Shown here piece by piece: positions 3,779 to 44,423 of a stretch of DNA of 64,000 bases; position 1 is the first letter of the stretch, and the number at the start of each line of letters is the position of its first letter. The notes beneath the pieces are model-generated. The model was not told the origin of the DNA and ran no database searches. It saw nothing but the letters and a program-made list of their open reading frames with translations. The DNA comes from Branchiostoma floridae. Its lineage: Eukaryota; Chordata; Leptocardii; Amphioxiformes; Branchiostomatidae. The position numbers and the translations under genes are program-made. The DNA lies in the NCBI RefSeq assembly GCF_000003815.2, contig NW_023365693.1:148309-212308 (forward strand), in the 5' to 3' direction.

Positions 3779-4214
3779 TAATCTCCAAGCAGAGGTTAGG
3801 TTTCGGCTGTTTTTTGACGATTATTAGGCATTTTATCGGGATTTTCTATTTTGTACCGTTTTGTTGTTTCTCGGTCGCTAAAAACGCATTAAAAACGTGC
3901 GAGAATTTTTTATTACCTTTGCCAAGAAGGTTATGTTTTCGGTGGTACTTATGTAGTCATGTTGATGTTCATGGACAGCATAAAGTATAACTTAAGAAGT
4001 TGTGGATGAAACTTTATAGTATTCATTATGTTGGTAGATGTCGGTAAAATGAAGAACATCTTAGGTCCGATTTTGGGTCCCCTATTTTCTGTACTGTTTC
4101 CTTTACGTCTCGTGGCCAGAGACATAATAAAAACGGTACAAAATAGAAAGCCAGATGAAAACGCCTAAAAAAACGTCAAAAAACAGCCGGAGTCTAACCT
4201 CTGCTTGGAAAGTA
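3779..4214. mobile_element. Fold-back element with about 80-bp inverted arms (CTCCAAGCAGA family)
   Basis: The left arm from 3779 reads TAATCTCCAAGCAGAGGTTA and continues through GGCTGTTTTTTGACG to TTCTATTTTGTACC. The right arm, read in reverse from 4214, is TACTTTCCAAGCAGAGGTTA with the same following blocks, so about 80 bp pair imperfectly. The centre has no coding potential. The termini match those at 17369, 20443, 34025 and 51457. No clear target duplication is visible here. A related unpaired fragment (TTTATCGGGGTTTATATTTTGTAC) is at about 7898-7925. Confidence 0.75.
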
Positions 4215-4998
4215 CCAAAACGCTACGGTATAGATGATCACATAGTCTGAAGAAAGGTGAGTTTATCCATGCACCACCCACACAAGATCCTTCCATTCAG
4301 GTTCCATTCTCGACTTTGAACCTGTGACGTCATGACTCCTTTGATGTGCCGACGGTTACGTAAGCGGTTTTGAAAATGTTAAACAAAAGCAGCCTTTGTG
4401 TAATGTTGGAAACAAGCAATGGCGATTTGCACGTCGCATCATACAAAGAAAACTTACTTTACTCATGCACCACTCAAAGTGAACCCTAGTTTTTTCCAAC
4501 GAAATAATGACAGTCATTAAAGCAGCCACTGTCAGAAGCAAGGAACTCCGTAATGCTGAAAAGACAGGCAAAGAAAAGTACCCAATGTTTGTGTTTTTTC
4601 CCACTCGTCGCAAAGCCAGATCTAGAGAGTTGCCACGAGGACTTCTCCGATCTCGCCGAAGGTCACGACAAATTTTGAACTCTAGCGAGATTAATTGCGT
4701 CGTGTTGGCGTCACATGCACACGACCTGGTATGGGTCACACAAAGCACTCTCCTATCTGAAGTCGAGTAGCATTAAGTGACATGGTCAACCTATGCTTTT
4801 GTCGGGCACTTTTGCAATAAAGGTGCCTCTAGCGGATATTATATATACTGCAGTCCATACCTCACATGATGTTTTGACTGATTGCTGACAGGTTGTTAGA
4901 GATTGGCTAAATGAAGTGAACCATCTAGCATAATACTGAGGCTCGAGCTCAATAGAAGAGTATAAATAACCGACAAATACGATGCACACACATGGCAG
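4215..4998. other. Intergenic, no gene supported
   Basis: A 130-codon open frame on the minus strand (4356-4748) has scattered hydrophobic stretches and cysteines but no recognisable family, start context or splice signals. It is not called as a gene. Confidence 0.4.
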
Positions 4999-5051
4999 AC
5001 ACACACACACACACACACACACACGTATGCACACACACACACACACACAAA

Positions 5052-5088
<37 letters not shown>
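4999..5088. repeat. (CA)n microsatellite
   Basis: Nearly uninterrupted CA dinucleotides with a few GT/TG interruptions. The Val/Cys-rich minus-strand frames here are artefacts of the repeat. Confidence 0.95.
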
Positions 5089-5089
<1 letters not shown>

Positions 5090-6045
5090 TAATAGAAAGA
5101 GACATAACTGAAAAAAAAACAGCAGATGCAACCATTGTACAGGTATTTATTGCTTTATTGCTCTGCTGTAAATATGATAGTCCAGGTAAACTTTCTTCTT
5201 TCTACTTCTTCATTCTACTACTGAACATGTTAAAGAATTGCATGAATTGCAATTATGGTCCCCATTGGTCAATACTGACCATGGTAAAATCCTAATTGAT
5301 ATCAGCCCTACAGCTTCAACTATAAATTAACAGTCAGTATACAACAATGACTCTGCCACATAGGGTACATCTAAATCTATAAGCTGACTCAGGTCTGTTG
5401 CAATGACATCACCATTTAAGGTATATTATTAATCTTCTGAAGTCTTAGAAACATTCAAAGTATTTTACGAACTGTTTCATACATGCCTCAACAAGGACCA
5501 AGTAAGGGCTACGTATACAATAAAGCAACACTCAGTCGCACTCAAAGCTACTGAATAGAAATCGTTATAGGTACATTTTCTACCTTCTTTCTTTTCGGTA
5601 TCAGTAGATTACTCATTGATTATTTCCAGTTGATACTTACTCCAATACTTTGTGAAATTATTGGTAAAAATCTGCTAACGTTACAATCCATATTTCTAGA
5701 ACGTTGTAAAAATTGGTAAGTTCACATCACTCCTGGTGAATTACTGAGTAATAAAAAGCAAAATAGCAAATGCTTTTACACTTTTTTTGAAGAGTAGCAA
5801 TTCTGAGAGAAGTCTCCAGCTAGATTTCAAATACGCAAAGATTGGTTACACTACGTTTTTTTTTACAAAGTGGCAAGACATTTCTACATTTAATATATAG
5901 TTGAATGGTCGATATACACAGGAAAGACCATCAACACCACATGACTATAATGTTACAGATTTACATATTATAATATGATTTATGATCAAATTCTGGTAAT
6001 TCAACCTGAATAGATTGTAGACTGATTTTAAATCAACTTGTTAGA
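5089..6045. other. Intergenic, AT-rich, no gene seen
   Basis: No open frame, RNA gene or recognisable transposon terminus was found in this stretch. Confidence 0.5.
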
Positions 6046-6259
6046 TACTGTAAATGCATTTAAGTTCGCGGGGATTTAATTTCGCGGTAGCGGGAAAAAA
6101 TGACTTTTCGCGGTGGTTTTAAGTTCGCGGTAACACAATAGACTGCAGTCTAATACCACAATAGACAAAATCTTTGCGGTGTTTTTAAGTTCGCGGTGAA
6201 GTGGTCACCGTGAAAACCGCGAGCATTCATCCACCACGAACATTTCTGCATTTACAGTA
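6046..6259. mobile_element. MITE, TACTGTAAATGCA family, copy 1
   Basis: Starts TACTGTAAATGCATTTAAG and ends TTTCTGCATTTACAGTA, so about 12 terminal bases are inverted. The body contains the diagnostic phrases TTCGCGGGGATTTAATTT, CGCGGTGGTTTTAAGTTCG and ACCGCGAGCATT. It is flanked by TA. The same element recurs at 23784, 27351, 47091 and 56241, with decayed copies at 42560 and 49098. It has no coding capacity. Confidence 0.85.
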
Positions 6260-6410
6260 TTTCTCTGTCCATACTTGTATACTCTCCAATGTCAGAAACG
6301 CTGCCTGAGAGTCTGTGTGGTGTAATTTGTCACATTTAATTGCTAATAAATAAATGAATATTGTCTTTCTACATGTCAGCTCCAAATTAAGACATAAAAA
6401 TCTCATTACA

Positions 6411-7458
6411 ATTCTGAATCTTTCTCTACTAAAACGTACAATTCTGAATCTTTCTCTACTAAAACGTACAATTCTGAATCATTCTCTACTAAAACGTACA
6501 ATTCTGAATTATTCTCTACTAAAACGTACAATTCTGAATCATTCTCTACTAAAACGTACAATTCTGAATTATTCTCTACTAAAACGTACAATTCTGAATC
6601 TTTCTCTACTAAAACGTACAATTCTGAATCATTCTCTTCTAAAACGTACAACTCTGAATCATTCTCTACTGAAACGTACAATTCTGAATCTTTCTCTACT
6701 AAAACGTACAACTCTGAATCATTCTCTACTAAAACGTACAATTCTGAATCTTTCTCTAATAAAACGTACAACTCTGAATCTTTCTCTACTGAAACGTACA
6801 ATTCTGAATCATTCTCTACTAAAACGTACAATTCTGAATCATTCACTACTAAAACGTACAATTCTGAATCTTTCTCTACTAAAACGAACCACTCTGAATC
6901 ATTCTCTACTAAAACGTACAATTCTGAATCTTTCTCTACTAAAACGTACAATTCTGAATCATTCTCTACTAAAACGTACAATTCTGAATCATTCTCAACT
7001 AAAACGTACAATTCTGAATCATTCTCTATTAAAACGTACAACTCTGAATCATTCTCTACTAAAACGTACAATTCTGAATCTTTCTCTACTAAAACGTACA
7101 ATTCTGAATCATTCTCAACTAAAACGTACAATTCTGAATCATTCTCTACTAAAACGTACAATTCTGAATCATTCTCTACTAAAACGTACAATTCTGAATC
7201 ATTCACTACTAAAACGTACAACTCTGAATCATTCTCTACTAAAACGTACAACTCTGAATCATTCTCTACTAAAACGTACAACTCTGAATCATTCTCTACT
7301 AAAACGTACAATTCTGAATCATTCTCAACTAAAACGTACAATTCTGAATCATTCTCTACTAAAACGTACAACTCTGAATCATTGTCTACTAAAACGTACA
7401 CTTCTGAACATTTCTCTACTAAAACGTACAATTCTGAATCTTTCTCTAATAAAACGTG
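6411..7458. repeat. 30-bp minisatellite, about 35 copies
   Basis: The unit is ATTCTGAATCATTCTCTACT followed by AAAACGTACA, exactly 30 bp with almost no length variation over about 1.05 kb. Because 30 is a multiple of three, one frame on each strand stays open for the whole array and gives 10-residue peptide repeats (LNHSLLKRTI on plus, VLVENDSELY on minus). Base changes between units are few. I read it as a non-coding satellite because a stop-free unit makes a long open frame automatically. There are no splice sites or start context to argue for coding. Confidence 0.9.
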
Positions 7459-9665: not shown

Positions 9666-10175
9666 TGTAGTGGGTTGAGTTGTCTCCTTTGCTTGAAATC
9701 GATGGTAGTTGTGGTTTTACTTCAAAATCTCACTGGGCCGGGATCTACCTGCAACACAAGGACAACAACTCTCAGTTCACTCCAAACTATGGACCTCATT
9801 GGAAAGAATAAAAACTGCCTCTTCTTTCACTCCGTTAGGATTGTTAAGGACAGCTTTATACGCACAAAGGGACGGTGTTGTCTAAGTCTGGTCTTAAAAG
9901 TCTCATTAACCAGTTGGTGGTGCTTTGTGTTTTAGTGAAAGAATGGAATCATGTTGGGGTTTAGATTCTTTGGCCCAGTTCTCAAAACCACTCCGGAGAC
10001 GTAAGTGTGAGCATCTGACCAAAAGAATGTTCAAGGCACTCAGTTGCGTTCTGTGCAGCTTTTTTATGAATTGTTTTATTTGACACAGACACTGTTTTAG
10101 TCACGTACTAGTAATTTACAGAGAGACTCCTTGACTGTAAGCCAAAGATTTGTTTCTGCTTCTCCACAAAATATT

Positions 10176-11450
10176 TTACTGATATGTATTGGGCACTGCA
10201 CGTGTTTCTGATAGTTCTACGTCCTGGCCTTTGTCGTCTTGCACATCGCGATTCTGAAGTTTTTGTATGAACTTTCTGGCGCATGCCGCAATGGCCAGCG
10301 TCGAAAGCAAGGCAGCAACAACTGTTACGGTAATGGCTATAATGGCAGCTTTGGTGAAGGAATTTGATACTTTAGGGGCGGAAGTTGATGCTTTAGGGGC
10401 GGAACTTGATCCTTTAAGGACGGAACCTGATGATTTAGGGACGGAGGTTGATGTTTCGGGGACGGAACGGGTTACTTTAAGGGCGGAATTTGATACTTCG
10501 ACTTCATTTGTAGCGTTAGTCGACCGGATGATATGAGTGCGGTGTTCATTTACTGACGAAATAGTAATGTTTGGCGTGGTGATAGTCACCAGGGCTTCAG
10601 CCTGTCGGACCTTGAAGATAGTCGTGGACTGTTTTACTGTACCTGTTGCTGTGGTTTGAGCAACGGAAAGTGCTCTAGCTTTGGCAGTAGTGTAAGTTGA
10701 TACTGTAACAGTTGTTTGGAAAGAGTCGTCGGTGGTTGTCGTCTTGCAGTCAGGTAAGTTTACGTCATATAGCGGTGAGTCTTTGAAGTGGTCAGGACCG
10801 CTACACTTGAAGCCATTGCTCATCACAAGACTACCGTAAAATGGACCAGCCTTCAACTCATATGGACATCGACGAAGGCCAATGGCCTGGGACCAACAAC
10901 GCTCTTTGAATATGACAGCTAACTTTGCCAACCAGGACATACGACAGTCACAGCGGATGGGATTCCCTTGTATATGTCTGGTCACTTTCGGGATATTGGT
11001 TTGGGGAGGGACGCCCATGTTGGTTTCCGAGAATGTAGCCAGCTTGTTGCACTCTACATTCACCGTTGTAATGTATTTAAGTAGGTGTTTAACAGCCAAG
11101 CCGAGCCTGATAGAAGATAACTCATTATGAGACAAGTCAAGTGTTGTAAGGCGCCGCATGTGTCTCAAAGATTCCCAAGGGAATGTTGTGATGAGGTTGT
11201 GACTGAGATTTAGATTATTGACGTTTGCGAATTTGGAAAGGCCTTGGACTATTTGGATCTGGTTGTATGGCAGCTGCACGCCAGTCACGTAGCTCGGAGG
11301 GTTAGTAGGTAGGCTTGTTATGTTGGATTTTGGACAGTTGATCTTTGCAAATGGTCCATATCTTTCGACATAGCATCTCTCTGGAAATGTATCATTTGTG
11401 CCTGCACTTGTGAGTAGCATCATAATAAATAAGCACTTTAGATATTTCAT
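10176..11450 (-). CDS. LRR type I membrane protein, paralogue 2
   Basis: Intronless gene of 424 residues; the start is the ATG at 11450 (MKYLKCLFIMMLLTSAGTN), because upstream in-frame codons include no ATG. Signal peptide, N-cap (ERCYVE, INCPKS), LRRs (VQLPYNQIQIV, LNLSHNLITTF, LDLSHNELSSI), and a C-cap with GNPIRCDCRMSWLAKL and the phrase FKCSGPDHFKDSPLYD. The Thr/Ser stalk ends in about seven 7-residue repeats of the type SVPKAST or GSVLKGS. One membrane helix (AAIIAITVTVVAALLSTLAI) and a basic-acidic tail ending in VELSETRAVP follow. It is nearly identical to paralogue 3 in the ectodomain. Its position about 2.15 kb from paralogue 1 and 2.09 kb from paralogue 3 marks a regular tandem array. 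Confidence 0.87.
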   Translation of the reverse strand: MKYLKCLFIMMLLTSAGTNDTFPERCYVERYGPFAKINCPKSNITSLPTNPPSYVTGVQLPYNQIQIVQGLSKFANVNNLNLSHNLITTFPWESLRHMRRLTTLDLSHNELSSIRLGLAVKHLLKYITTVNVECNKLATFSETNMGVPPQTNIPKVTRHIQGNPIRCDCRMSWLAKLAVIFKERCWSQAIGLRRCPYELKAGPFYGSLVMSNGFKCSGPDHFKDSPLYDVNLPDCKTTTTDDSFQTTVTVSTYTTAKARALSVAQTTATGTVKQSTTIFKVRQAEALVTITTPNITISSVNEHRTHIIRSTNATNEVEVSNSALKVTRSVPETSTSVPKSSGSVLKGSSSAPKASTSAPKVSNSFTKAAIIAITVTVVAALLSTLAIAACARKFIQKLQNRDVQDDKGQDVELSETRAVPNTYQ

Positions 11451-12266
11451 GATGGTGATCAAGGACTGTAATGACGTTGCAAAATAGGCTGGTTTAAAGT
11501 TTAAGTTAGTTCTTCGCCGTTTGCTTTTTACTTAAAAATAAGATTAGCTTTTCTTAGTAAACCAGCTTTAAGGGTTAAGGAATGGTTTAGTATCACAAGA
11601 AAGGCTGTTTTGAAACTCCAGGTCTTTCCTCGCCGTTTGGTCTTTCCTTAGTTTTGCTTAAATTTGAGATAAAGGTTTTCTACTTAAGGAGAGATGTCAG
11701 ATGACAATTTTTACGAGTAAAGTAATGGTTTCTGATAACAGGGGAGTTTCGTAGGTGTCGTGGTTGGATTGAGATGAGGTGAAACCGATGATGGCTGCGT
11801 TTTCTCGCCGGGCCGGAAGTGCCCTGCAACACAAGGAGACAACTCTCAGTTCACGTCAAACTATGGACACCTCATTGGAATGAATAAAAACTGCCGGCGC
11901 CTCTTCTTTCACTCTGTTAGGATGGTTGAGGACAGCTTTTACGCACAAGTTAAGGACGTTGTCAGTTTCTTCATCGATCTTGTTTGAGGAGGCACCTTGT
12001 AGTCATGGTCTTTAAAGTCTCATTTTCCATTATGTGATGCTTTGTATTAGTGAAAGAAAGGAGTTATGTTCTAGTTCTACTTCTCAAAACCACGAAGACA
12101 TTAGTGTGAACATCTGACCAAAAGAATGTTCAAGGCACTCAGCTGCAGTTTTATGCAGCCATTTTATGAATGTTAGATTTGACAAAGACAGTTTTGGTCG
12201 CGTAATTTGCAGCGAGACTCCTTGACTGTAAGCCAAAGAGATTTTTCTGCTCCTCCACAAAATGTT
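11451..12266. repeat. Spacer of the LRR tandem unit
   Basis: 5' flank of paralogue 2 and 3' flank of paralogue 3. It carries the block AAAGGCTGTTTTGAAACTCC, the phrase CAACACAAGGAGACAACTCTC and the phrase CAAAAGAATGTTCAAGGCAC. All three recur at matching places in the neighbouring spacers (9675-10175, 13560-14365 and in part 15640-16310). Conservation of the spacer with the gene shows that the whole unit of about 2.1 kb was duplicated. Confidence 0.75.
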
Positions 12267-13526
12267 TTACTGATTTGCATCAGGACCTGCAGCTGTTTCT
12301 GACAGTTCTACGCCCTGCCCTTTGTGATCTTGCACTTCGTGATTCTGTCGTTTTTGTATGAACTTCCTGGTGCATGCGACAATGGTCAGCGCCAGAAACA
12401 AGGCAGCAACAACAGCAATTGCTACAATGGCAGCTTTTGGTACGGAACTTGATACGTTAAGGGCGGAACCTGATCCTTTAGGGACGGCAGTTGATGTTTT
12501 GGGGACGGAATCTGATACCTTAAGGGCGGAACCCGATGCTTTGGGGACGGAAGTTGATGCTTTAACTTCATTTGTAGCGTTAGTCGACCGGGTGATATGC
12601 GTGTGGTGTTCATTTACTGACGAAACAGTAATGTTTGGCGTGGTGATAGTCACCAGGGTTTCAACCTGTCCGGCCTTGAAACTGGTCGTGGATTGTTTTG
12701 TTGCACTTGTGCTAGTGAGGCTGTCTTTTGTGGTTTGGGCAACGGAAAGGGCTCTAGCTTTGGCAGTAGTGGAAGTCGCTACAGTTGTTTGGAAAATGTG
12801 GCTGTTCGTTGGTGTAACATTGCAGTCAGGTAAGTTTATGCCATATAGCGGCGAGTCTTTGAAGTGGTCAGGACTGCTACACTTGAAGCCATTGCTCATC
12901 ACAAGACTACCGTAAAATGGACCAGCCTTCAACTCATATGGACATTGATGAAGGCCAATGGCCTGGGACCAACAACGCTCTTTGAATATGACAGCTAACT
13001 CTGCCAACCAGGACATACGACAGTCACAGCGGATGGGATTCCCATGTATATGCCTGGTCACTTTCGGGATATTGGTTTGGGGAGGGACGCCCATGTTGGT
13101 TTCCGAGAATGTAGCCAGCTTGTTGTGCTCTACATTCACCGTTCCAATGTATCTAAGTCTGTGTTTAACGGCCAAGTCGAGCCTGATAGAAGATAACTCA
13201 TTATGAGACAAGTCAAGTGTTGTAAGGCGCCGCATGTGTCTCAAAGATTCCCAAGGGAATGTTGTGATGAGGTTGTGACTGAGATTTAGATTTTTGACGT
13301 TTGCGAATTTGGAAAGGCCTTGGACTATTTGGATCTGATTGTATGGCAGCTGCACGTCTCTCACGTATTTTGGAGGGTTAGTAGGTAGGCTTGTTATGTT
13401 GGATTTTGGACAGTTGATCTTTGCAAATGGTCCATGTCTTTCGACATAGCATCTCTCTGGAAATGCATCATTTGTGCCTGCACTTGTGAGTAGCATCATA
13501 ATAAATAAGCACTTTAAATATTTCAT
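12267..13526 (-). CDS. LRR type I membrane protein, paralogue 3
   Basis: Intronless gene of 419 residues, start at the ATG at 13526. It has the same order as paralogue 2: signal peptide, cysteine N-cap, LRRs (LNLSHNLITTF, LDLSHNELSSI), C-cap (GNPIRCDCRMSWLAEL), a Thr/Ser stalk, one membrane helix (AAIVAIAVVAALFLALTIVA) and a short tail (VELSETAAGPDANQ). The stalk ends in about six 7-residue repeats (STSVPKA, SGSALKV, SDSVPKT, STAVPKG and similar). Ectodomain identity with paralogue 2 is very high, but the stalk before the repeats differs by indels, including an added KDSLTSTSATKQ segment shared with paralogue 4. This pattern suggests recent duplication or gene conversion of the LRR part with faster stalk change. 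Confidence 0.87.
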   Translation of the reverse strand: MKYLKCLFIMMLLTSAGTNDAFPERCYVERHGPFAKINCPKSNITSLPTNPPKYVRDVQLPYNQIQIVQGLSKFANVKNLNLSHNLITTFPWESLRHMRRLTTLDLSHNELSSIRLDLAVKHRLRYIGTVNVEHNKLATFSETNMGVPPQTNIPKVTRHIHGNPIRCDCRMSWLAELAVIFKERCWSQAIGLHQCPYELKAGPFYGSLVMSNGFKCSSPDHFKDSPLYGINLPDCNVTPTNSHIFQTTVATSTTAKARALSVAQTTKDSLTSTSATKQSTTSFKAGQVETLVTITTPNITVSSVNEHHTHITRSTNATNEVKASTSVPKASGSALKVSDSVPKTSTAVPKGSGSALNVSSSVPKAAIVAIAVVAALFLALTIVACTRKFIQKRQNHEVQDHKGQGVELSETAAGPDANQ

Positions 13527-13534
13527 GATGGTGA

Positions 13535-14365
13535 TCAAGGACTGTAATGACGTTGCAAAATAGGCTGGTTTAAAGTTTAAGTTAGTTCCTCACCGTTTGC
13601 TTTTTACTTGAAAATAAGATTAGCTTTTTTTTAGTAAATCAGCTTTAAGGGGTAAGGAATGAATGGTTGATTGTCACAAGAAAGGCTGTTTTGAAGCTTC
13701 AGGTCTTTCCTAGCCGTTTGGTCTTTCCCTAGGTTTGCTTAGATTTGAGATAAAGGTTTTCTCAATCTATATGTAAGACTTAAGGAGAGATGTCAGATGA
13801 CAGTTTAACGAGTAAAGTAATGGTTTCTGATAAAAGGGGAGTTTCGTAGGTGTCGTGGTTGGATTGAGATGAGGTGAAACTGACGATAGCTGCGTTTTCT
13901 CGCCGGGCCGGAAGTGCCCTGCAACACAAGGAGAATAACTCTCAGTTCACTTCAAACTTTGGACACCTCATTGGAAAGAATAAAAAAAACTGCCTCTTCT
14001 TTCACTCTGTTAGGATTGTTAAAGACAGTTTTATACACACATGTACAAAAGGACGTTGTCAGTTTCTTCATCGATCTTGTTTGAGGAGGCACCTTGTAGG
14101 CATGGTCTTAAAAGTCTCATTTTCCAGTATGTGATGCTTTGTATTAGTGAAAGAAAAGGGTCATGTTGAGGTTTAGATTCTTTGGCCTACTTCTCAAAAC
14201 CACGAAGACATTGGTGTGAACAACTGACCAAAAGAATGTTCAAGGCACTCAGTTGAATTCTGTGCAGCTTTTTTATGAAAATTTAATTTGACGCAGACAC
14301 TGTTTTAGTCACGTAATTTTGACTGCAAGTCAAAGAAATTTTGTTCTGCTCCTCCACAAAATATT
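13535..14365. repeat. Spacer of the LRR tandem unit, second copy
   Basis: It matches the 11451-12266 spacer block by block: the AAAGGCTGTTTTGAAGCTTC segment, the TGCAACACAAGGAGAATAAC segment and the AAAAGAATGTTCAAGGCACT segment, in the same order and at similar distances. No independent gene is seen; a short frame at 13874-14134 is only conserved spacer. Confidence 0.7.
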
Positions 14366-15622
14366 TCACTGATTTGCAACGGGTCCTGCAGCTGTTTTTG
14401 ATAGTTCTATGCCCTTCCCTTTGTCGTCTTCTTCATCATGATTTGGACGCTTCTGAATGAACTTTCTGGTGCATGCGGCAATGGCCAGTGTCAGAAACAA
14501 AGCGGCAACAACAGCAATGGCTATAATGGCAGCTTTTGGTACGGAACTTGATGCGTTAAGGGCGGAATCTGATGCTTTAGGGGTGGAGGTTGATGTTTTG
14601 GGGACGGAATCTGATACCTTCAGGGCGGAACCCGATGCTTTGGGGACGGAAGTTGATGCTTTAACTTCATTTGTAGCGTTAGTCAACCGAATGATATGCG
14701 TGTGGTGTTCATTTACTGACGAGACAGTAATGTTTGGCGAGGTGATAGTCACCAGGGCTTCAGCCTGTCCGGCCTTGAAGATAGTCGTGGACTGTTCTGT
14801 TGCACCTTTGCTAGTGAGGCTGTCTTTTGTGGTTTGGGCAACGAAAATGGCTCTAGATTTGGCAGTAGTGGAAGTCGCTACAGTTGTTCGGAAACAGTCG
14901 TCGGAGGTTGTAACATTGCAGTCATGCAGGTTTACGTCATACAGCGGTGAGTCTTTGAAGTGGTCGGGATCGCTACACTTTGATTCCAAGACAAGCTTCA
15001 GACTTTTATAAAATGGACCAGTACTCAACTCCCTTGGACATGGTCGAAGAGGATTGTACCGGGTACACAGCTCGTCGATTTGGGCAGCTAGTTTTGCCAA
15101 CCACGACATACAGCAGTCACAGCGAATGGGGTTCCCCTCTATACGCCTGAAAACCTTCATACTACTGGTTCGGGGAGGAACGCCCATGTTGGCTTCCGAG
15201 AATGTGGCCAGCTTGTTGTAGGCTACATTCACCGTTGTAATGTATTTCGACGGTCCGCGTCTGACCACCAAGTCGAGCCTGATCGAGGATAACTGATTAT
15301 GCGACAAGTCAAGTCGTCTAAGGCGCCGCAGGTGACTCAAAGATTCCCAAGGAAATGTTGTGATCAGGTTATGGCTGACATTTAGTGTATAGACGTTTGC
15401 GAATTTGGAAAGGCCTTGGACTATTTGGATCTGATTGTATGGCAGCTGCACGTCTCTCACGTATTTTGGAGGGTTAGTTGGTAGGCTTGTTATGTCGGAT
15501 TTGGGGCATTTGATATCGGCAGAAGATCGAGATTTTCTGACATAGCATCTCTCCGGAAATGAATCATTTGTGCCTGCACTTGTGAGCAGCATCAAAATAA
15601 CGAAGCACCTCAAATATTTCAT
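14366..15622 (-). CDS. LRR type I membrane protein, paralogue 4
   Basis: Intronless gene of 418 residues; the start is the ATG at 15622 (MKYLRCFVILMLLTSAGTN), since the upstream in-frame extension begins at a TTG. It shares the fold of its neighbours: N-cap (ERCYVRK, IKCPKS), LRRs (LNVSHNLITTF, LDLSHNQLSSI), a C-cap (GNPIRCDCCMSWLAKL), a Thr/Ser stalk with about six 7-residue repeats, one membrane helix (AAIIAIAVVAALFLTLAIAA) and a tail ending IELSKTAAGPVANQ. The C-cap has an extra cysteine (CDCCMS instead of CDCRMS) and a different loop (QIDELCTRYNPLRPCP), so its disulfide pattern may differ. It is the most 5' unit of the array and has the longest upstream repeat region. Confidence 0.87.
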   Translation of the reverse strand: MKYLRCFVILMLLTSAGTNDSFPERCYVRKSRSSADIKCPKSDITSLPTNPPKYVRDVQLPYNQIQIVQGLSKFANVYTLNVSHNLITTFPWESLSHLRRLRRLDLSHNQLSSIRLDLVVRRGPSKYITTVNVAYNKLATFSEANMGVPPRTSSMKVFRRIEGNPIRCDCCMSWLAKLAAQIDELCTRYNPLRPCPRELSTGPFYKSLKLVLESKCSDPDHFKDSPLYDVNLHDCNVTTSDDCFRTTVATSTTAKSRAIFVAQTTKDSLTSKGATEQSTTIFKAGQAEALVTITSPNITVSSVNEHHTHIIRLTNATNEVKASTSVPKASGSALKVSDSVPKTSTSTPKASDSALNASSSVPKAAIIAIAVVAALFLTLAIAACTRKFIQKRPNHDEEDDKGKGIELSKTAAGPVANQ

Positions 15623-15639
15623 AATCGTGGTCAAGGACT

Positions 15640-16310
15640 GCAAAACGTTACAAAATAGACTAGTTTAAGTTAGTTCCTAACCTTATGCCCTTTACTTTGT
15701 TTTACTTAAAAATGAGATTTATTTTTCTTATGAATCCAACTTTAAGAGACAAGGGATGGTGTAATGTCACCAGAAAGACTGCTTTTAAATTCCAGGTCGT
15801 TCCTAGCCGTTTAGTCTTTGCTTAGTTTTGCTTCAATTTGAGATGGAGGTTTTCTAAATCTATGTGTGAGAGTGAGTTACGGAGTGATATTCGATAACAA
15901 TTAAGTCAGCTTTAGGAGTAAAGTAACGATGTCTTTGTTCTACTTTAAAATGAGATTAACGTTTCTTAGCAATCCAGCTTTAAGGGACAAGGAATGATTT
16001 TGTGTCACCAGAAAGGCTGCTTTTAAATTCCAGGTCTGGCTTCGCCGTTTTGGCCTAACTTAGTTTTGCGTAAATTTGAGATGAACGTTTTTTAATCAAT
16101 TTTAAAGACTTTAGGAGTGATGTCCGATATATACAGTTGAGTCAGCTTTAAGAGTAAAGTAACAGTGGAATTTTGTAAGTCGTGGATGGGGGGGGGGGGG
16201 CTGAGAAACAGATGATAGCTGCGTTTTTACGTCAAACTGTCGTCAGACCGGAATGCCCTGTAACACAAGGGAAACAACTCTCAGTTCACTTCTAATTACC
16301 ACCGCCTCAT
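15640..16310. repeat. Upstream repeats of LRR paralogue 4
   Basis: The block with AGAAAGACTGCTTTTAAATT, TCGTTCCTAGCCGTTT and TTTGAGATGGAGGTTTTCTA appears twice (from about 15770 and about 16008, spacing near 240 bp), followed by the conserved TAACACAAGGGAAACAACTC segment at about 16261. A 12-base G run is at 16189-16200. This resembles the repeats 5' of the other three genes. Confidence 0.65.
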
Positions 16311-16387
16311 TAGACTAGTTAAACATTGCACCATCTTTTGCCCCGTTAGGACTACGTGTGCCTATCAGCCTTATATGCCTGACTGCG

Positions 16388-23006: not shown

Positions 23007-23596
23007 TAGCTCCAAAGGAACGGTATATTACATAACACCGTTCCAAAGCGAGCCATACAAGAGATCCAACTTGTGTTCACTGGGTCTTTATTCTGGCCCG
23101 GCGGGCCGGATTCTTCAACTCCCTACCTTCCGAACGCACTTACCTGCGTTTGCGGACGAAAAACAAGTCCAGAAGCCCCAAGATNNNNNNNNNNNNNNNN
23201 NNNNNNNNNNNNNNNNNNNNNNNNNNNNNNNNNNNNNNNNNNNNNNNNNNNNNNNNNNNNNNNNNNNNNNNNNNNNNNNNNNNNAATGAGCTGCTATCAT
23301 TTTTCCAAAGTCGACGTGGGGGTCACATCGGGTCAAATCCCCGCATTAATAATGACAAAAATGGCCGGCGGTGACTTTTATGAATGGACTCTTTGTTTTT
23401 CTACCGCTTATGTGGATTATCTTGGGGCTTCTGGACTTGTTTTTCGTCCGCAAACGCAGGTAAGTGCGTTCGGAAGGTAGGGAGTTGAAGAATCCGGCCC
23501 GCCGGGCCAGAATAAAGGCCCATTGAACACAAGTTGGATCTCTTGTATGGCTCGCTTTGGAACGGTGTTATGTAATATACCGTTCCTTTGGAGCTA
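23007..23596. mobile_element. Long-TIR element with perfect 9-bp target duplication; contains assembly gap
   Basis: The left arm starts TAGCTCCAAAGGAACGG and the right arm ends CCGTTCCTTTGGAGCTA. At least 178 bp (23007-23184) pair with the right arm with only two or so mismatches before the left arm runs into a 100-N gap (23185-23284). The flanks are a perfect 9-bp repeat CTTTTATAC at 22998-23006 and 23597-23605. The centre has no transposase-like frame. Long TIRs with 9-bp duplication are characteristic of Mutator-like (MULE) elements, so this is probably a non-autonomous MULE. High arm identity suggests a young insertion. Confidence 0.85.
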
Positions 23597-32142: not shown

Positions 32143-34958
32143 CCTGATGGCCCTCCTCCACAGCGTACTGGTCGGCTCCATGGCGCTCTACCTCTTCCTG
32201 TTCTCTGACGTCATCACGCCAACCGTCATCAGGTCTGCTCTACTTGGTTACTAAATATTACGTCGTAAATTTGATTTGGTCGTGACGTATAGCTTACCAG
32301 GCGACGATTAAGGCATTAGATCACATACACGATTGTGGCCTGGCGCATATCGGAGTATATGAAAAGCTGATAAAACATCAATAGTTTGTTTTGTATGCGT
32401 TAACAATATCATAACAATATAATAAGTATATGAACGTAATATCGTACTACATCCATGGTTGGAAGTCCTCCTAGGAGACGGATACTCCGAACAACAAAGC
32501 TACATCTGCTGGAGCCGCCTCACACGTTGCATACAGTTGCCCCTGTGAGACTTAGTGCTCCAGTAGACGAGAGGGTGGAGAAGGAATTGCACACCCCTCC
32601 TTCACCATAAAAAGTCATGTGCAGGTCAGGCAAACAGGCAAATAGCCTGTCTGCCTCCTCATCTGTCCAATCGACAGGAGAGAAACCAAAATCGTTCTAC
32701 AAACAATGGCATCACAAACAATCATATGATATCATTGGCTGGTGTGTTACGTCGAACAAAGATGGTTATACCGGCTACATAGATACGGATACAGATATAG
32801 GAGCCTTGAAATACGTTATTGATAACATTTCAATAACATCTGAGCACTTTTGGTTTTCTTCTCCAGGCAGGAAGTTCCGCTGTTAAAGCTGTCTGTGTGT
32901 GTCCTGGTGGGCTACACGATGGCAGGTAGTTCCTTGCTTTTACTAGCGAAATTGCATGTAGAAAAAAAATGCTTCTTTCGTCAATTATCAGATAAGGGGA
33001 ACGTGCGGACTAAAAAGTACCTAAAACCATCTCAGAAAAGAACAATAAAGAGTCATAACCAGTCGTACCTTCAAGTATCAGAGTTCCGGAATTAGCACGT
33101 CACCAGAACGTACTGCGCCTGCGCGAAAAGTATAGACATGCTAAACCTGGCTAAACCCCCGGTTTACTAAAGGGCCGCATTTAAGAAAGTACGTGCGTAT
33201 ATAAGGGTAAAATCCCGTGTACGTTTTGCATGAAACCATGTCTCTAACATATACTGTGCAACAAGCGGGATTTCAATGCAACGTTGACCAAACCAAGCCC
33301 CAAAACACCAGGGTTCGCGCAGGCGCAGTACGTTCCGGTGACGTGCTTCCGGAATTAAGGTGTTCAAAAATACTTTTCCCTGGAACTTTTCCTGCCCTCT
33401 TAGTAACAACCTATTACTTTATTTTAATATCATCAAACTAGACACGGTGGTTCTTGCATCTAATCCGACCGAGGACGTCTCCCATTGGTCCATGTTCGTG
33501 CATCACGTGATCTGCCTCTACACCGGACACGCCGCCGCCGTACGTATACGTCACGGTTTCTATGGCAACATTGTTGCCAACAAGTAGGCTATTTTCTTTC
33601 TTGCCTACTTTTGTTGTCACCCAGTTTTTTCTTCATTTTTCGTCCCTCCTGTACATGTTTCTTCCCAAATAAGTCGGCTCGTGATATAAACTGCGCATGT
33701 GTAACTAGAAGCAATGTGGCCAATAACTAAAAGTTAAAGGATCCTGGGACATGAAGAAAATACGTCTGGACTTGTATAAACCAGGTTCTAGACAAAAGTT
33801 GTTTACAACTTATAATATGGGTCTTCCCTTTTACATATCACCCACAAGACATCTCGCTGCGCAGGCGCAGTTTAAACAGTGAACTTGCTTATTCTTATTC
33901 TTCCCCTTCCAGGCTTCAGCCGAGTTGCCCTACTACCAACTGCAGTGGATCCTAATGGAGCTTGCTAACCCATTTAACAACCTGCGGTAAGTGTAAACCC
34001 TTTCATATCATCGGGTCTACCGACTAATCTCCAAGCAGATCCTAAGGTAGCATAAGATAGTATCAAAAGCTGTCAGAGTGAAGCCGGCCAAGGAGTGTGC
34101 CCGTCTGACTCCCTTTGGCCGGCTATCCTCACTTATCAGCTTTGATTCTAACTTATGGTACCGTAGGATCTGCTTGGAGATTACTATTAACCATTCCAAC
34201 CAATCCGGTGAACATATTGCAAATGGTCGAATGACTAGGCGAGCAGAGACGAGTTCAACAGGCCAATTCCTGGCATTCCTGACTAGACATATAGTCTAGT
34301 CTAGTGTTCTTGGGAAAGGCACTTTACAGGGCTTTTCTGACTAAAAGCAGGTGTAAAATGGGATACCTGGCTTTAGCAACTGCTCCTGACGGTATTAAAA
34401 TTTGGGAGCGGACCAAAGCTAACAAGGCAGAACTTCAGGCTATTGAACTTGGCTTCGGTTGGGGTGGTGAAAGACTTTGAAAGGGGTTGGGCTCCGCCTT
34501 CCAATACCGTACCACTTTTTGAAACCTCCTTGCACAGACCAAGGAGCTTATGCACAGACGCAGTTGAACAGACACAGACACATCCCACGTGTACTGTTCC
34601 TAAATGATCCTAAATGTACAACCTCAACGCTGTGGGCCTTACATTTTGTATTTTACACTTTTGCAGGTTGATATTAAAGGAACTTGGTCAGAAAACGTCC
34701 ACCCTCTACCAAGTGAATGGACTCGTCCTTCTGGCGATGTTCTTCCTGACCAGAGTCGCACCCATCCCCTTCTTCTGGTATCACCTGACCTCTATCATCC
34801 AATCAGAGGACTTCTCCGGGGTGACCTTCAGTATGAAGGTCGTGGCGTTGGTTCTATCTCCCACGATGCACTGCTTGAACCTTTTCTGGTTTTACAGGAT
34901 ATACAGAGGAGTGATAAAATACTTCTTCGGAAACAAAGACAAGAAAAATCAAACGTAA
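32143..34958 (+). CDS. TLC-domain multipass membrane protein, copy A (exons 2-6)
   Basis: TRAM-LAG1-CLN8 (TLC) domain protein, most like the TLCD4 (TMEM56)/TLCD5 group, an endomembrane family. Exons 32143-32232, 32867-32925, 33442-33539, 33913-33986 and 34667-34958, with GT/AG sites and consistent phases. The product has membrane segments around SMALYLFLFSDVI, KLSVCVLVGYTMA, FVHHVICLYTGHAAA (the paired His typical of the domain), GLVLLAMFFLTRVAPIPFFW and a last one at SPTMHCLNLFWFY, then a basic tail ending KDKKNQT. The stop is at 34956-34958. No exon 1 equivalent is visible within 1 kb upstream, where copy B carries about 50 residues. Either the start lies farther upstream or this duplicate lacks its first exon. 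The last exon is intact, unlike copy B. Confidence 0.75.
33095..33346. mobile_element. 252-bp TIR element in TLC copy A intron
   Basis: Ends GCACGTCACCAGAACGTACT and, inverted, GCACGTCACCGGAACGTACT continue through GCGCCTGCGCGAA (about 33 bp of TIR). An 11-bp direct repeat TTCCGGAATTA flanks it at 33084-33094 and 33347-33357. No coding capacity. The long flanking duplication (8-11 bp) again suggests a Mutator-like non-autonomous element. Confidence 0.8.
34025..34183. mobile_element. Palindromic MITE, CTCCAAGCAGA family
   Basis: Left arm TAATCTCCAAGCAGATCCTA and right arm TAGGATCTGCTTGGAGATTA with the shared inner phrases AAGATAGTATCAAAAGCTG, CTTTGGCCGGCTATCC. It lies 38 bp after the splice donor of exon 5 in copy A. 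The loop CCGTCTGACTCCCTTTGG matches that of the 17369 copy. Confidence 0.85.
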
Positions 34959-36389: not shown

Positions 36390-38291
36390 ATGACGCTGAG
36401 CTATGACGGTTTGCTTTACATGAGCGCAAGTTTTGCGTTTTTCATGTTCGTTTACAAGTACGTCGTCTCAGCCGCCCTCCGAGGGTGTTCGAAGGCGTAC
36501 GAGTCGCTACCGCGTGAGAAGAGAGTAGGCGTGGATACCAGGTAAGCTATGAGCTCTGTTTCAAGTTTTTTTTTGTATTTTGTATGTACTATGTCGCATC
36601 ACTTGTTGTGCCACAGCGTGTACGGTTCTGTACTAAATGCTGAACGGGTTGTAAAGTACAAACTGTGTAAAAGCTTGCATTTACGTACTTCAGCCACGCC
36701 CATTGGCGGCCTTCTGCTGTGGTCAGTGGGCCATGTTGATTTGATTATTTGGATGAAATCCCATGAGAATAAATTTTCGTTCGTTTTCCAAAAATAATTC
36801 CAACCACACTATAAATTGGACGAAGCAGCTGCAAAATGAGCACATATTTTGGAAAAGATTGGAAAATTTAAAAATATCGGGAAACGGATACAAATATTAT
36901 AGAATGCAATCGTCCAATTCAAGGTCAAAGAAGAAAATGTGAAAAAAATGAAGACTATTAAGTGTACATAATCTGTTAATTAACTCATTAATTCATTCAT
37001 CCCATGTTCCAGCCTGATGGCCCTCCTCCACAGCACGCTGGTTGGCTCCATGGCGCTCTACCTCTTCCTGTTCTCTGACGTCATCACGCCAACCGTCATC
37101 AGGTATGCTCTGATTGGTTATTCAATCTTGCGTCAATAAATTTGAACTGGTATGACGTACGTATACGGTCTTGCTTACCAGATGCTGATGTAGTACATAT
37201 TTCGTATACGCGCTTGTCGCACTGGCGAAAAACTAGTCTGTCTTTAGGGGCACAACACCTGCTACATAGAGTTTTGGCAAGTCATGTATGAAGATACATA
37301 TAACATATGTGCACTTATAATGATGTACGTTCTCCAATCGAAATACGCGATTTAACACAATGATGTTTTTCTCCTCCAGGCAGGAAGTACCACTACTTAA
37401 GTTGGCTGTTTGTATCCTGGTGGGGTACATAATGGCAGGTTTGGGCATTTACAGTGCTTTACTTTTGACCGTACATTATGTAGTTTTAATTTGAAAATAC
37501 AATTCTTTGCTTGTGTCGCTAGCTTTTCAAAAGAGTAGATAAGGAGGGTCCACTTTCACAAAAACAAACATAAAGAAAACAATCTTTGGTGACATACTAA
37601 CTCTAGCTGGCCAGTTAAGTACTAAAAACTGCTTTTGAATTGTGGCAGAGATGTTCCGTAACAAGTTACCTAAAGCAAACGGTACTGATGCTGAAAAATG
37701 ACCAAAAGAAAATCGGGAAAACGTTTTGTTTTTTTCAAGTAATAAGTACTAAGTATATTTTTTTTTGTTTGTTATCATGAAATTAGACACGTCAGTTCTT
37801 GTCTGTAACCCGACCGCGGACGTCTACGATTGGTCCATGTTCGTTCATCACGTGATCTGCCTCTACACCGGATACGCTGCCGCCGTACGTATACAGTGAC
37901 GTTTCTATGGCAACGATGGCTTTTGATAGGATTTTCTATGATTATGCTTGTGCTCAGCAACCGTGGCAGACTAATACTTAAACGATGAGGCGCAATTGCT
38001 TGGCTTATTTTCCTATATGAGACTAAGTTGTTGCAAGCTTATAACGTTATCATGTTTTACTGAGAAGTATCTAATTTATAAGAAAATTTGTTTTTGTAAT
38101 TTGAGTGTCATTTGCTCGTTTTGTTACACTTTTTGTTTGTACCGTTGATTTTGTGTATTGTTAATGTCTGTTGATTCCCCCAGGCAACATTGAAAAACGC
38201 CGATTGAGGCCGATATGTATCCCCCTGGTTGAATAAATAAATCCATATGCCCTTCTAAATGATATAACTACAATTTTATGTTACCGATTAA

Positions 38292-38891
38292 GCCCCCTTC
38301 ACACGAGAGCAAGAATCAGCCAGAATGCCGTCGGAATGAAAATTCTTTTCTATTCCTGACATATTCCTGGCAATTCGTACTTTATTCCAGACATTCTTAC
38401 TGTATTCCAGCTATTTGTGCCCGTTTTTGGCTGGCCCGAAAATTTTGACACGTTAAAAACTGTCGAGGTGCATTCGAAGTGGAGAAATATCGAATGACAT
38501 TCGAAGTAGATTCTAAGTGTATTTTAACTATTCTAACTGCAGTCTGACCGCATTCTACGGCATTCCAACATTATTCGAAACATTCTTATCTCATTCGATG
38601 GAGAACCGAAACGGCAAGCCACTTCGAATTCTGCCCGAATGTTGCCTAAAGAATATCTGGAATGCAGCAAGAATTTCTCGAATACTAGTACAGTATGAAT
38701 TTCCAGGAATAGAAAGGACTTTTCCTTCTGACGGCATTTTGGCTTATTCCTTCTCGTGTGAAGGGGATATAAGGTCCATTTGAAATTCCCACACGGAGTG
38801 GCCCCGAATGTGGCACGAATTTTGCAAATACTTCATTCCGACTGGTTCTGCTTGATTCCTGCCCATTCGATTTCCGTGTGAAGGCCCTGTT
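38292..38891. mobile_element. Fold-back element rich in ATTC tokens
   Basis: The left end CCCCCTTCACACGAGAGCAA and the sequence to about 38390 pair with an inverted copy ending TTCTCGTGTGAAGGGG at about 38766 (arms include GGCATTTTGGCTTATTCC and TTTCTATTCCTG). A further end TTTCCGTGTGAAGGCCCTG lies at about 38872-38890, so the element may be composite. It sits in intron 4 of TLC copy B. Confidence 0.7.
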
Positions 38892-39752
38892 AGCAATTTT
38901 CTCCATTTTTTATACTAGTAACCTCCGACCTCTCTACTTTCATTGCCACCTAATTGGGTTCATTTTCGACGTTCTTTTCGTCTGCCGTTTGTTCTAAAAT
39001 ACATTATTGTAGGTATCAGCTGAGTTGCCGTACTACCAACTACAGTGGACTCTAATGGAGCTTTTCAACCCCTTTAACAACCTCAGGTACGTGACGTGTA
39101 AACCCCTTTACACCCGCATGGCTACCAACTTATCTATTCGATCCAATCATCAGGTGATAATTGTTAACTCGAATTGTTTTACCTTAGCTTGCTAAAATTT
39201 CATGTTATGCAAAGTTGAACTGCATCTTCCTGGACAAATATTGCCCCAAATTTGCGAAGTCGTTTTCAAGGAATGGACAATCCTTCGTTTCTGTGATGTC
39301 ACGTTATTCTTGTGGAACACATTGTTCACTGGATTATAAATTGCAAAAGGTGAAGAGAAGCTTTGGATTGCTCAACAAACTCGAGTTAGACAGTTACTGA
39401 TTTCATTGATTATTTTTTTGTTAGAAATTACCTTCTGCTTCAAAATCATTTCTATCAACACAGATGAACGTTCAAGCTTATTTTACAGTAAGTCAATTTT
39501 TTTCAGGTTTATCTTAAAGGAACTTGGTCAGAAAACATCCACCCTCTACCTGATGAATGGAATCGCCCTGGTGGGAATGTTCTTCTTGGCACGAGTCGCG
39601 CCCATCCCGTTCTTCTGGTATCACCTGACTTCTATCATCCAATCAGAGGACTTCTCTGGGGTGACCTTCAGTATGAAGGTCGTGGCATGGAGTTCAAACA
39701 AGGGGGTGTGGCTACTAAGGCTGATGGGAAGGATTAGGCGTGCCTCACCAAA

Positions 39753-42331
39753 ATGGCGCCCGCCAGAACTTGGAGCAATGACGTGCTGAAGAACCCCGGG
39801 GACTGTGCGTTTATTCAGCCGTGTGCCGACACATGGAAGGTGCGTATGTACAGGGGATAAAACAGTGTTTCATTCGGTATGCTATATGTACTGTGTTAAG
39901 TGCCGATCGCTCTTCTTTCACGTGTTGTATCTTTAGGTTATAGCTATATACTACATTTTTTACCATTTCGAAAGTCCTAAATGGTTACGGTAATATATAG
40001 CTATCTTTGAATATAATCCTTTGTCAGAACTCAATAGAATCTACTTACACAGAAAATTTGAAGTCAATCGGCCAAGGCGATCTTGAGAAAATGATTTTTG
40101 AAGTTGACATCATGTGTAGTTGCCCCCCTCCCCACTATTCAGAAGTGTGGTAACTTCAACATGTCACAGGGATGTGATCATTTAATGTAAACCTTACAAA
40201 GGTAGTTTGTATCATTAGTAGATATATTTGTGCAGCATATGATGGAATATGAAGCAAATCTATGCTTTTGATGAAGAAATAAAAACACTGGAAGTTGACC
40301 TTCAATTGACCTTCTGTATGACTGACACCCAGCCACATTCAAAAATTCCCCGGAAATAAAAAAAAAATTGTTTGATTGCAAAAAAATAGCAAGAATCAAT
40401 AGTACGTATATGTCTCCAACATATATTGGAATATCAAGTCCATCCATACTTTTGATGAAGAAAAATACTCATCCAAAGTTGACCTATATTTGACCTCTTC
40501 TGTCACTCTTACCCAGCCACATTCCAAAAATCCCCGGAAATACAAAAAATTGTCTGATTGCGAAAAAAATAGCAATAATCAATAGTATGTATATGCCTCC
40601 AACATACATTGGAATATCAAGTCCATCCATACTTCTGATGAAGAAAAATACTCATCCAAAGTTGACCTTCAATTGACCTCTTCTTTCGTTCACACCCAGT
40701 CACTTTCAGAAAATAGACGGAAATACAAAAACTTCTCTGATTTCGAAAAAAATAGCAAGAATCAATAGTACGTATATGTCTCCAACATATGTTGGAATAT
40801 CAAGTCAATCCATGGTTTTGATGAAAAAATATAGCCTTTGGAACTTGATGTAAATTTCAGCTGTTACATTACTGACACCTAGGTCCATTCCAAAATTCCC
40901 CGGAAATATAAGATCTTGTCTGATTTTCTGGAAACTAGTAAGAATCAATAGTACATATATTTCTCCAACATATATGGGAATATCAAGTCAATCCATGGTT
41001 TCGATGAAAAAATATAGCCTTTGGAACTTGAGGTGAATTTCAGCTGTTACATTACTGACACCTAGGTCCATTCCAAAATTGCCCGGAAATATAAGATCAT
41101 GTCTGATTTTCTAGAAACTAGTAAGAATCAATAGGACATATATTTCTCCAACATATATGGGAATATCAAGTGAATCCATGATTTTGATGAAAATATATAG
41201 CCTTTGGAACTTGAGGTGAATTTCAGCTGTTACATTACTGACACCTAGGTCCATTCCAAAATTCCCCGGAAATATAAAATCATGTCTGATTTTTCAAAAA
41301 CTAGTAATAATCAATAGTACATATATCTTTCCAATATATGTAGGAATATGAAGTGAACCCATGCTTTTGATTAAGCAATATACTCATTGCAAGTTGACCC
41401 AAATTTTGGTTGTATTCTTGTTTACAGTGAGCCTTTTCAGAAATGCCCTGGACTCAGAAAAACATCTTTGATTTTTTTCAAAAACTAGTAATAGTCAACA
41501 GTACTTGTAATTTTGTATGTCTGAAACTTATGAGAGAATATTAATTGCATCCTTGCTTCTCACTAAGAAGTATAGAGTTTGAAAGTACAAGTAAACATGC
41601 TGGCTGTATTAATTTGAAAGTTGTAACTTCAGTATTCCATTTCTGAGTGTTATATGCTACTTGATTGCCTCAAGCAATAGAAGTCATTACATTTAGAATT
41701 TCCCTTTTCTTCATTATATTTGAGGTGATTGAGGAAATACGCGCTTTTGATCAAGAAATACAGACTTAAGTTAATCAATGTATTTTAGTTGGTCAACCAA
41801 CATACATATGGAAGTCATCCTGAAAGGAAACAATATGACATTGTATACTAGTAGGTCATTAGTACTCGTATCTTCACTATAGTATGCAGAAAGACACTTA
41901 CTCAGATAAATATCAACTCATTTTTTTTTAATGAAGAAATTTAGACTCTGATTCTTACTCACTGGGACAGTACATGAAACTTGAGCGTATTTGTTATGTG
42001 CTGCATATTCACTTGAGTGCATAAGTAGCTTTACTTACAGATTGATTTTTTTGCTATAACAGTGTAAGGCTAAAGGAGCAAAATATTGTTAAGCACTTAA
42101 GTAATTGATAACTTGCAGATTTCTGATTTTATAACAGCTGTCTGCATACCCTGCCCCCCTCCCCCTCACACATAGATTACATGTATCTGGCTATTCAAGT
42201 GACCCACACCATATCAAAGTACTCTATTAGTAGAATTGAAGAGTATGATAGTTCAATGAATTCCTTGTTAACTTTCCACTGTGAAATGTTTTCTTTTTTT
42301 TCAGATGGTGTCCGCTCAGCAGTGGAAATAA
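39753..42331 (+). CDS. Possible two-exon mini-gene inside the insertion
   Basis: Exon 1 (39753-39839) starts at AAAATGGCGCCCGCC, a good initiation context, and encodes 29 residues including WSNDVLKNPGDCAFIQPCAD, ending AAG before the donor GTGCGTATG. A strong acceptor (TTTTCTTTTTTTTCAG, ending 42304) opens a second exon in the same phase that encodes MVSAQQWK and stops at 42331. The predicted product is 37 residues. The start lies only 66 bp inside the transposon end, so the terminal region could act as promoter. I do not recognise the peptide. It may be a captured gene fragment, or chance splice-like signals. Confidence 0.35.
40170..41480. repeat. Tandem array of about 183-bp units, about seven copies
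   Basis: The phrase CCCCGGAAATA or a close variant recurs at about 40350, 40533, 40715, 40897, 41080 and 41263, with a decayed copy near 41445. Between them lie conserved blocks: AGCAAGAATCAATAGTACG, TCTCCAACATATATTGGAAT, ATCAAGTCCATCCAT, GATGAAGAAA and TGACCTTCAATTGACC. Units from about 40850 onward share a sub-variant (TAGCCTTTGGAACTTGA). Wholly inside the 4.6-kb insertion. Confidence 0.85.
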
Positions 42332-42559
42332 AATGAACACTGAAGACTTTTAGTTCTGACATATGATGATGTACCTTGAACTACCTTCCTAACAAAGGAG
42401 TTGAATGCAACCATAGGCATATTTATAGTTAATTGTATTTTGAGAATATCATGGTATTTTATACAGAGTTTTGGATTTTCAATGCAGTGATTTGTAGAGT
42501 TGTTTCATGTACAGTGAAGAAGAAGAAGAGTATACAGTGTATATGTCCTTATTACAAAT

Positions 42560-42735
42560 TGTAAATGGGTAATGTTTGCAGTGGTTTTATGTTCATGTGT
42601 TTTTTGCAGCGATAAACTAACTGAAGGCTTAAGTGATTGCAAATATTTGGCCTTTAATAGTAAAACCCTGCATGGAAGTTTCAACCGCGAACTTAAAACC
42701 ACTGCCAACACTCCATTTTCTCCCTTTTACAGTAG
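42560..42735. mobile_element. Decayed MITE, TACTGTAAATGCA family
   Basis: The internal phrases GCAGTGGTTTTATGTTCATG and CGCGAACTTAAAACCACTGC survive, and the right end reads CCCTTTTACAGTAG. The left terminus is lost. It is older than the copies at 6046 or 27351, and nested in the 4.6-kb insertion. Confidence 0.6.
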
Positions 42736-44042
42736 TACATGTTTTAAAATAATCCCTTATCAAGTTTTGTAATTGATGATTTCAGAACTTTTTAATTATG
42801 TTTAGCTTCCTTTTTAGAGTTGACTATGATAAATAACTGACTGCCTATATGCTTGAGGGAAAAGAAGGATTTATAATAATAGTCCTAATGATAAGTATCA
42901 CAAGTTCTTGGAAATTATTGCCTGAGGGCTAATTACAAGTGAGAAAAATGACGAACAAACAATGGTAAACAGTACAGTAAGTGACCACTCTAGTCTAAAG
43001 TCTAACTCTAAGATGTTACTTATTCATAACCAATGCTATTCATTTATTCTTATATATAGTACAATGAAGCAGTACTTTGCCAGTGTTTTGAAAGTTATCA
43101 AATTGAAAGTCATTGATATTTTGTGTTTGTTGGTTTTAACAATGATATACTGAAACAGTAATGGTATCTTTGGCAATAGGAATTCTATTCATGAGCATTT
43201 CCTGTAATAGAATGCTGTTTCATTGAGTAAAACAATGCTGGATTATGTATGAAATATAGACCAACTTTACACGGTGTAGTGTAACATGGATAGAATGTAT
43301 GAAATGAGCCTTCCCTACAGTATGTAGATATATTTTCCACATCAAGAGCTGTTGATACTTTGCTATGATAGTGCTTGTGTGAACTTGTCACAGCTACATG
43401 TATGCCCAATAAGAAATAACCAGCTTTTGGCAATTTTTCCATGTGTTTTTCTTATTGCAGATTAAAAAGTGAACCAAAAGTCTGTATCTGATTTGCATCC
43501 TGTTTTGCACTGATTATGGTAATGCAACAGTAATAGAAATGCTTTGAAGATGCATGTTAATGTTGATACAGCCAAATTTTCCCAGCTAAAACAAACCTTA
43601 GCCAAATCCTAACCCTAACCTAGCAATAAAGGAATCCAATAAGGAACATTTGGCCTGTATTTCTGTTTGACTTTTATTTTTGTACATGAATTAATGTTCA
43701 ACAATTGCAGCTGTGTCTTTTGTAGTAAAGTACAACAAATCCAAGTTGTTGATTAGTTGATAATTTCTTGGAAATAACAATTTGAATTGGTGAGAAATAT
43801 ACATCAGCATCTTGCTGTCTGGTGCAGCATACTGTGTTGTCTTACAATTCAAATAAAGTTAAATTTAAAGAGATATACTTTCACCAAAAAAGTTAACAAA
43901 TACAAAGTTTTCTTCTGATAAATTCTGAAAAAAATTACTTTTCTTCTTCTCTGCTTTGAATTGTCCTTTGTATGGCAAAGCCCCTTGAAGATCTATGTCA
44001 TCTGTGAGTCATAAATTAATGGTATTTCATTTTGTTGAAGGT

Positions 44043-44288
44043 TCATATTTCAAAGTTTTCCATAGCATAAAAGCGTCCAAACCTATTGGTATCGTTTAAG
44101 GTTTGTCTGACTTCGACTATATGGCGATCCTGCACCCCGAAGATCAGTAGATCTAGTTGGATATCATGTTTATCGCTAGCCAAGGACTCCCCGGTTTGAA
44201 TATACCGCGCGTACCACATCCGGGTACCCATCATCCTTAGCGAAAACCATGAGTCGAGCCTCGTTTCCGTGAACCGGTCTGTCGCCAC
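44043..44288 (-). other. Unassigned open frame at the insertion's right end
   Basis: An 82-codon stop-free minus-strand stretch begins just inside the right terminus of the insertion (first codon GTG, not ATG). It contains RLDSWFSLRMMGTRMWYARY and IQLDLLIFGVQDRHIVEV, which looks more protein-like than neighbouring frames. No family recognised. It could be another captured exon or chance. Confidence 0.25.
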
Positions 44289-44423
44289 ACCCCCTTGATT
44301 GATTCCATGGTCGTGGCGTTGGTTCTATCTCCCACGATGCATCTCCTGAACCTGTTCTGGTTCTACAAGATATTTACTGGGTTGCTCAAATACCTCTCCA
44401 CAAAGGCAGAGAAGAAAGTTTGA

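Follow-up and report, generated by a model that had tools for sequence, protein, structure and literature searches.

A recent jump of a low-copy, non-autonomous DNA transposon with 7-bp target-site duplications into the last exon of a lancelet TLC gene

In Branchiostoma floridae a 4,624-bp element splits the final exon of TLC copy B, a gene with a neighbouring paralogue (TLC copy A), and the insertion is a genuine transposon jump, as an earlier note on this DNA had proposed and as other genomic copies with the same termini bear out. The locus lies in a stretch of 64,000 nucleotides (the window) of contig C135, in an assembly of 513,431,437 bases (513 Mb). The element has no recognisable transposase gene, and with great confidence we assign it to a young non-autonomous cut-and-paste family that generates 7-bp duplications. 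Here a low-copy transposon family of a lancelet has recently jumped into a coding exon; the case also illustrates that a 9-bp repeat seen at a single site can mislead classification, with the ends and the 7-bp duplication being fixed only by comparison of several copies. The corrected anatomy takes away a supposed Pack-MULE capture in a deuterostome.

The element's ends and the interrupted exon

The sequence GGTCGTGGC stands on both sides of the insert (39678-39686 and 44309-44317), with a third copy in the TLC copy A exon at 34838. This flanking repeat was earlier taken as a perfect 9-bp duplication that made both ends certain to the base. The repeat is real but the true duplication is 7 bp (GTCGTGG), the two outermost bases of the 9-bp stretch, G and C, agreeing with the element's own terminal bases by a coincidence expected once in 16. 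Comparison of copies shifts each end outward by one base, and the boundaries of Table 1 and the 7-bp duplication were adopted because the readable termini of the other copies begin CATGG (that at C9:0.79 Mb excepted). So delimited, the element opens with CATGG, closes with CCATG and carries inverted repeats of about 26 bp (CATGG...CAARGGGGTGYGGC), the pattern of its termini being CATGG N5-7 AWCAARGGGGTGYGGC, also written CATGG...CAARGGGGTG. That the termini match in inverse orientation, as previously noticed, is borne out by a perfect inverted 14-mer, CAAGGGGGTGTGGC, in both; when a 4,622-bp interval was placed at random 197,607 times in the window (the placements overlap and are not independent), the longest inverted end match was 11, and 14 was never reached.

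Table 1. Features of the insertion and of the two TLC exons (positions in the window)
Feature	Position	Strand	Remark
TLC copy A last coding exon, uninterrupted	34667..34955	+	empty-site reference
TLC copy B last exon, part before insertion	39507..39685	+	
Left target-site duplication GTCGTGG, 7 bp	39679..39685		
Non-autonomous DNA transposon, 4,624 bp	39686..44309		termini set by comparing genomic copies
Left terminal inverted repeat CATGGAGTTCAAACAAGGGGGTGTGGC	39686..39712	+	
Conserved left subterminal region	39713..39946		includes 'exon-like' ORF, not conserved as coding
183-bp satellite array, 7 units	40203..41484		found in old subfamilies too
Palindromic short element	42573..42710		relatives elsewhere in window
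Stretch of window copy missing from C317	42776..42989		
Conserved right subterminal region	44069..44283		CpG-rich
TATA-like word	44195-44204	-	105 bases in from element end
Right terminal inverted repeat CATGGAATCAATCAAGGGGGTGTGGC	44284..44309	-	
Right target-site duplication GTCGTGG, 7 bp	44310..44316		
TLC copy B last exon, part after second duplication copy	44317..44423	+	runs to stop codon

Removal of the insert together with one repeat restores an exon like that of the paralogue, as first proposed: the joined flanks align without gaps to TLC copy A (34659-34946, 288 bp, 84.7%), the frame is open, and the TLC domain is recognised (Pfam PF03798, E 7e-9). In the exon as it now stands the frame runs for 33 foreign codons into the element, up to a stop at 39787-39789, and the insertion is predicted to swap the last 34 residues of TLC copy B for 33 foreign ones. 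Over six aligned exon blocks, copies A and B show 77-89% identity, the last exon being the one that was translated. Between the joined exon and copy A, dN is 0.12 and dS 0.40 over 279 bp; upstream of the insertion point the values are 0.06 and 0.37, and downstream 0.22 and 0.47, showing stronger constraint on the upstream part. A search for an insert-free allele of TLC copy B gave, among the best 40 of 1,218 candidates, the window itself as the sole full match; the remaining rows all fell on a repeat of 600 bp in the query. Widespread presence/absence variation is described for lancelets in PMC12373286.

Elsewhere in the window, 38287-38897 holds a repeat of about 600 bp with partly self-complementary ends and 87-89% identity to at least 39 other genomic places. 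The gene content includes TRIM-NHL and LRR genes, and a tandem array at 9728-16314 has units of about 2 kb with long open frames, one of which (12270-13589, the one such frame scanned) gave an LRR match. At 23007-23596 inverted 178-bp copies (98.9%) on either side of a 100-N gap look like an assembly artefact.

Copies of the family elsewhere in the genome

The check suggested for a transposon family, that further copies share the termini but differ in their flanking repeats, gave a positive outcome. Family-related sequence occurs at at least 16 loci besides the window: at least 13 came from a whole-element search (best 40 of 408 candidates scored), and a right-end search (16 of 16 candidates scored) contributed a further three, at C3:16.47 Mb, C2:5.17 Mb and C4:29.47 Mb, the count leaving out 23 of 62 rows that matched only one short repeat within the insert. 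Among those best 40, copies over most of the element's length number one each on contigs C6 and C317 and two each on C17 and C4, with two older ones on C9; fragments are on C9, C3, C15, C11 and C153. An end-less fragment at C9:4.69 Mb is 94-97% identical to the element.

Readable termini of these copies start CATGG throughout, save at C9:0.79 Mb (CATTG, CATAG). Four of the seven copies with both ends readable have perfect 7-bp duplications, all different (GTCGTGG in the window, CTCATGT on C6, CCAACAC at C4 29.2 Mb and GTTTATT at C17 1.6 Mb), and three have none: C317 (judged by eye), C9 0.79 Mb and C17 5.84 Mb, the last being a young copy. Kimura two-parameter (K2P) distances to the window copy are 0.015 (98.5% identity) for the copies on C6, C4 (29.2 Mb) and C17 (5.84 Mb), 0.12-0.14 for those on C317, C17 (1.6 Mb) and C4 (4.8 Mb), and 0.30 and 0.47 for the two on C9, the latter values being rough as the global alignments also take in stretches that lack local similarity. 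In the older copies the termini are among the better-conserved parts, as expected of cis-acting sites. The family is undescribed in the titles and abstracts of the literature searched, which is no proof of its being unpublished.

At C153 and C4:29.47 Mb there is a second right-end subfamily, with the right end in common and a different interior; beyond the right end its interiors are mutually similar (L024 14-110 against L060 1501-1600). It is a candidate lead to an autonomous element. Pfam searches with eight ORFs of L024 gave nothing above cut-off (one match had E 0.092), and inspection by eye of ORFs of at least 100 aa in L023-L026 yielded nothing suggesting a transposase. That the autonomous member resides in this subfamily with a transposase that Pfam fails to recognise, the whole being an undescribed chordate lineage of DNA transposons characterised by CATGG termini and duplications of 7 bp, is a speculation to which we give little credence.

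The interior of the element and the question of capture

Start-to-stop frames contained entirely in the insert do not exceed 89 aa, in keeping with the original observation that it has no transposase frame. Its own satellite array, also reported at the outset, is confirmed as a 183-bp array whose three middle units are 91-95% alike and the others 66-87%. What did not survive is the proposal that exon-like sequence and other genomic material had been taken up, Pack-style, by the window copy from host exons or a host satellite. A low-GC, CpG-poor core and a strong-looking splice donor at 39840, top-scoring among the insert's 275 plus-strand GT sites though in a frame that is not conserved, speak for such uptake. 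Against it, the copies at K2P 0.12-0.14 (C317, C17 1.6 Mb, C4 4.8 Mb) have the whole interior in common with the window copy except 42776-42989 and small gaps, and the two oldest copies, on C9, share the ends, the satellite (one only partly) and a good part of the right half. A repeat at about 42886-43033, overlapping the stretch absent from C317, has matches at at least 23 other genomic places (among the best 40 of 408 candidates). The left ORF, starting MAPARTW, is interrupted by an in-frame stop in three of four older copies (by eye, TAG in C317 and in both C9 copies, with C17 1.6 Mb open). For the exon-like readings, the top Pfam match (E 0.07) fell short of its cut-off and the top PDB matches had E 0.6 and 1, no better than chance. 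With its interior common, wholly or largely, to other subfamilies, capture by the window copy is unsupported, and we regard it as scarcely credible; a captured host gene fragment, with the interior shared, the ORF not conserved and no homologue, was rejected for this copy.

Superfamily and relation to known systems

The identity first offered was a non-autonomous Mutator-like element that had picked up genomic material; the reading considered here covers MULEs and the satellite-bearing Rehavkus alike, whether or not DNA was captured. Such an identity would suit the apparent 9-bp repeat and the absence of genes, and for Rehavkus PMC6446971 gives a minisatellite, duplications of 9 bp and inverted repeats of 26-400 bp; a gene-less element, inverted repeats and an internal satellite are what the insert has in common with Mutator-like elements, Rehavkus and Pack-MULEs. 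Yet wherever a duplication is present, in four of the seven copies (three having none), its length is 7 bp, as against the 8-11 bp given for MULEs in PMC6446971, and capture is unsupported. In addition the start is CAT and not the G/C run in the first three bases of most arthropod MULEs described in PMC13359780, and PMC6446971 speaks of limited evidence for MULEs in chordates. A Mutator-like identity is thus highly improbable.

The reading that we consider probable, with moderate confidence, is of a non-autonomous family mobilised in trans in a P-superfamily-like manner. A transposase encoded elsewhere, of the P superfamily or working like one, would cut and paste a low-copy family whose members offer inverted repeats of about 26 bp and conserved subterminal ends; each integration would create a 7-bp target duplication. 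One copy has recently entered TLC copy B, in its last exon. Termini of the form 5'-CA(T) are the general rule in the P superfamily, and the CA start of the element (CATGG; CATTG or CATAG in one old copy) is found in Galileo and the superfamily at large. The 7-bp duplication lies within the superfamily's 7-8 bp (PMC4168063, PMC10983969).

A genome search with the P-type RNase H profile PF21787, in which all 10 candidates were scored, gave three loci. The C19 and C11 loci are enclosed by perfect inverted repeats, of 31 and 39 bp respectively by BLAST. In both elements the termini start CAAGGAG and the flanks were read as target duplications of 7 bp, CTCTAAC and AAGTCAT; on C11 this reading depends on the inverted repeat being counted from its second base. 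Two P-transposase elements in the same genome with 7-bp duplications and a CA start make a P-type mechanism the most likely one. Within about 5 kb on each side of the three PF21787 loci the core of the element's ends (up to two mismatches) does not occur, nor was a transposase-bearing element with the insert's termini found near them. Similarity between the element's ends and the P-like termini is weak: for the left end it was equalled or bettered by 78 and 262 of 5,000 shuffles, and for four other ends by 317 to 4,926 of 5,000.

This weak similarity, the failure to find a matching transposase and the right-end subfamily with its different interior at C153 and C4:29.47 Mb are points for membership of another superfamily with duplications of about 7 bp (hAT-like) or of an unnamed lineage. 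On the other side, PMC3706591 describes P and hAT elements with duplications of about 8 bp, and Dada-U6 and Dada-U1 (6 bp; Dada overall 6-7 bp) without terminal inverted repeats, and the two P-like elements of this genome read as 7 bp. Such a membership is possible though on balance unlikely. Dada itself was rejected by the criteria of PMC3706591, the element having inverted repeats and sitting in a protein exon and not in a small RNA gene; Rfam gave no match in the window at gathering score.

The C19 element (G000:C19:10306000-10318000; L030/L031) is of interest in its own right. A stop-to-stop frame of 767 aa (4192-6492 of the joined stretch) has at residues 29-115 a match to PF12560, the RAG1 importin-binding-like N-terminal region (E 7e-8), and at residues 555-703 the P-type RNase H PF21787, and a similar-looking N-terminal frame is present in L033 (C11). 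According to PMC8355894 the RAG1 N-terminus is thought to derive from N-RAG-TP, a sea-slug element made entirely of that region; with both domains in one C19 frame, elements of the N-RAG-TP type may be members of the P superfamily. Both P-like elements (L031 on C19, L032 on C11) have a second long frame, of 362 and 351 aa respectively, convergent with the transposase frame, that of C19 being without a Pfam match.

Among the known systems that come closest is Galileo: this P-superfamily member has mostly 7-bp duplications (PMC4168063), many non-autonomous copies and tandem repeats, in one copy inside the inverted repeats, whereas the insert is without transposase and THAP domain and its inverted repeats are merely about 26 bp. 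Zebrafish Pdre2, P element-like, has an inverted repeat starting CATACC and known internally deleted copies, and differs in its 8-bp duplication, 13-bp inverted repeat and THAP9-type transposase gene (PMC10983969). Nearest to home, the elements at C19:10.31 Mb and C11:17.08 Mb share with the insert the genome, the 7-bp duplications and ends that start with CA, but they carry transposase frames.
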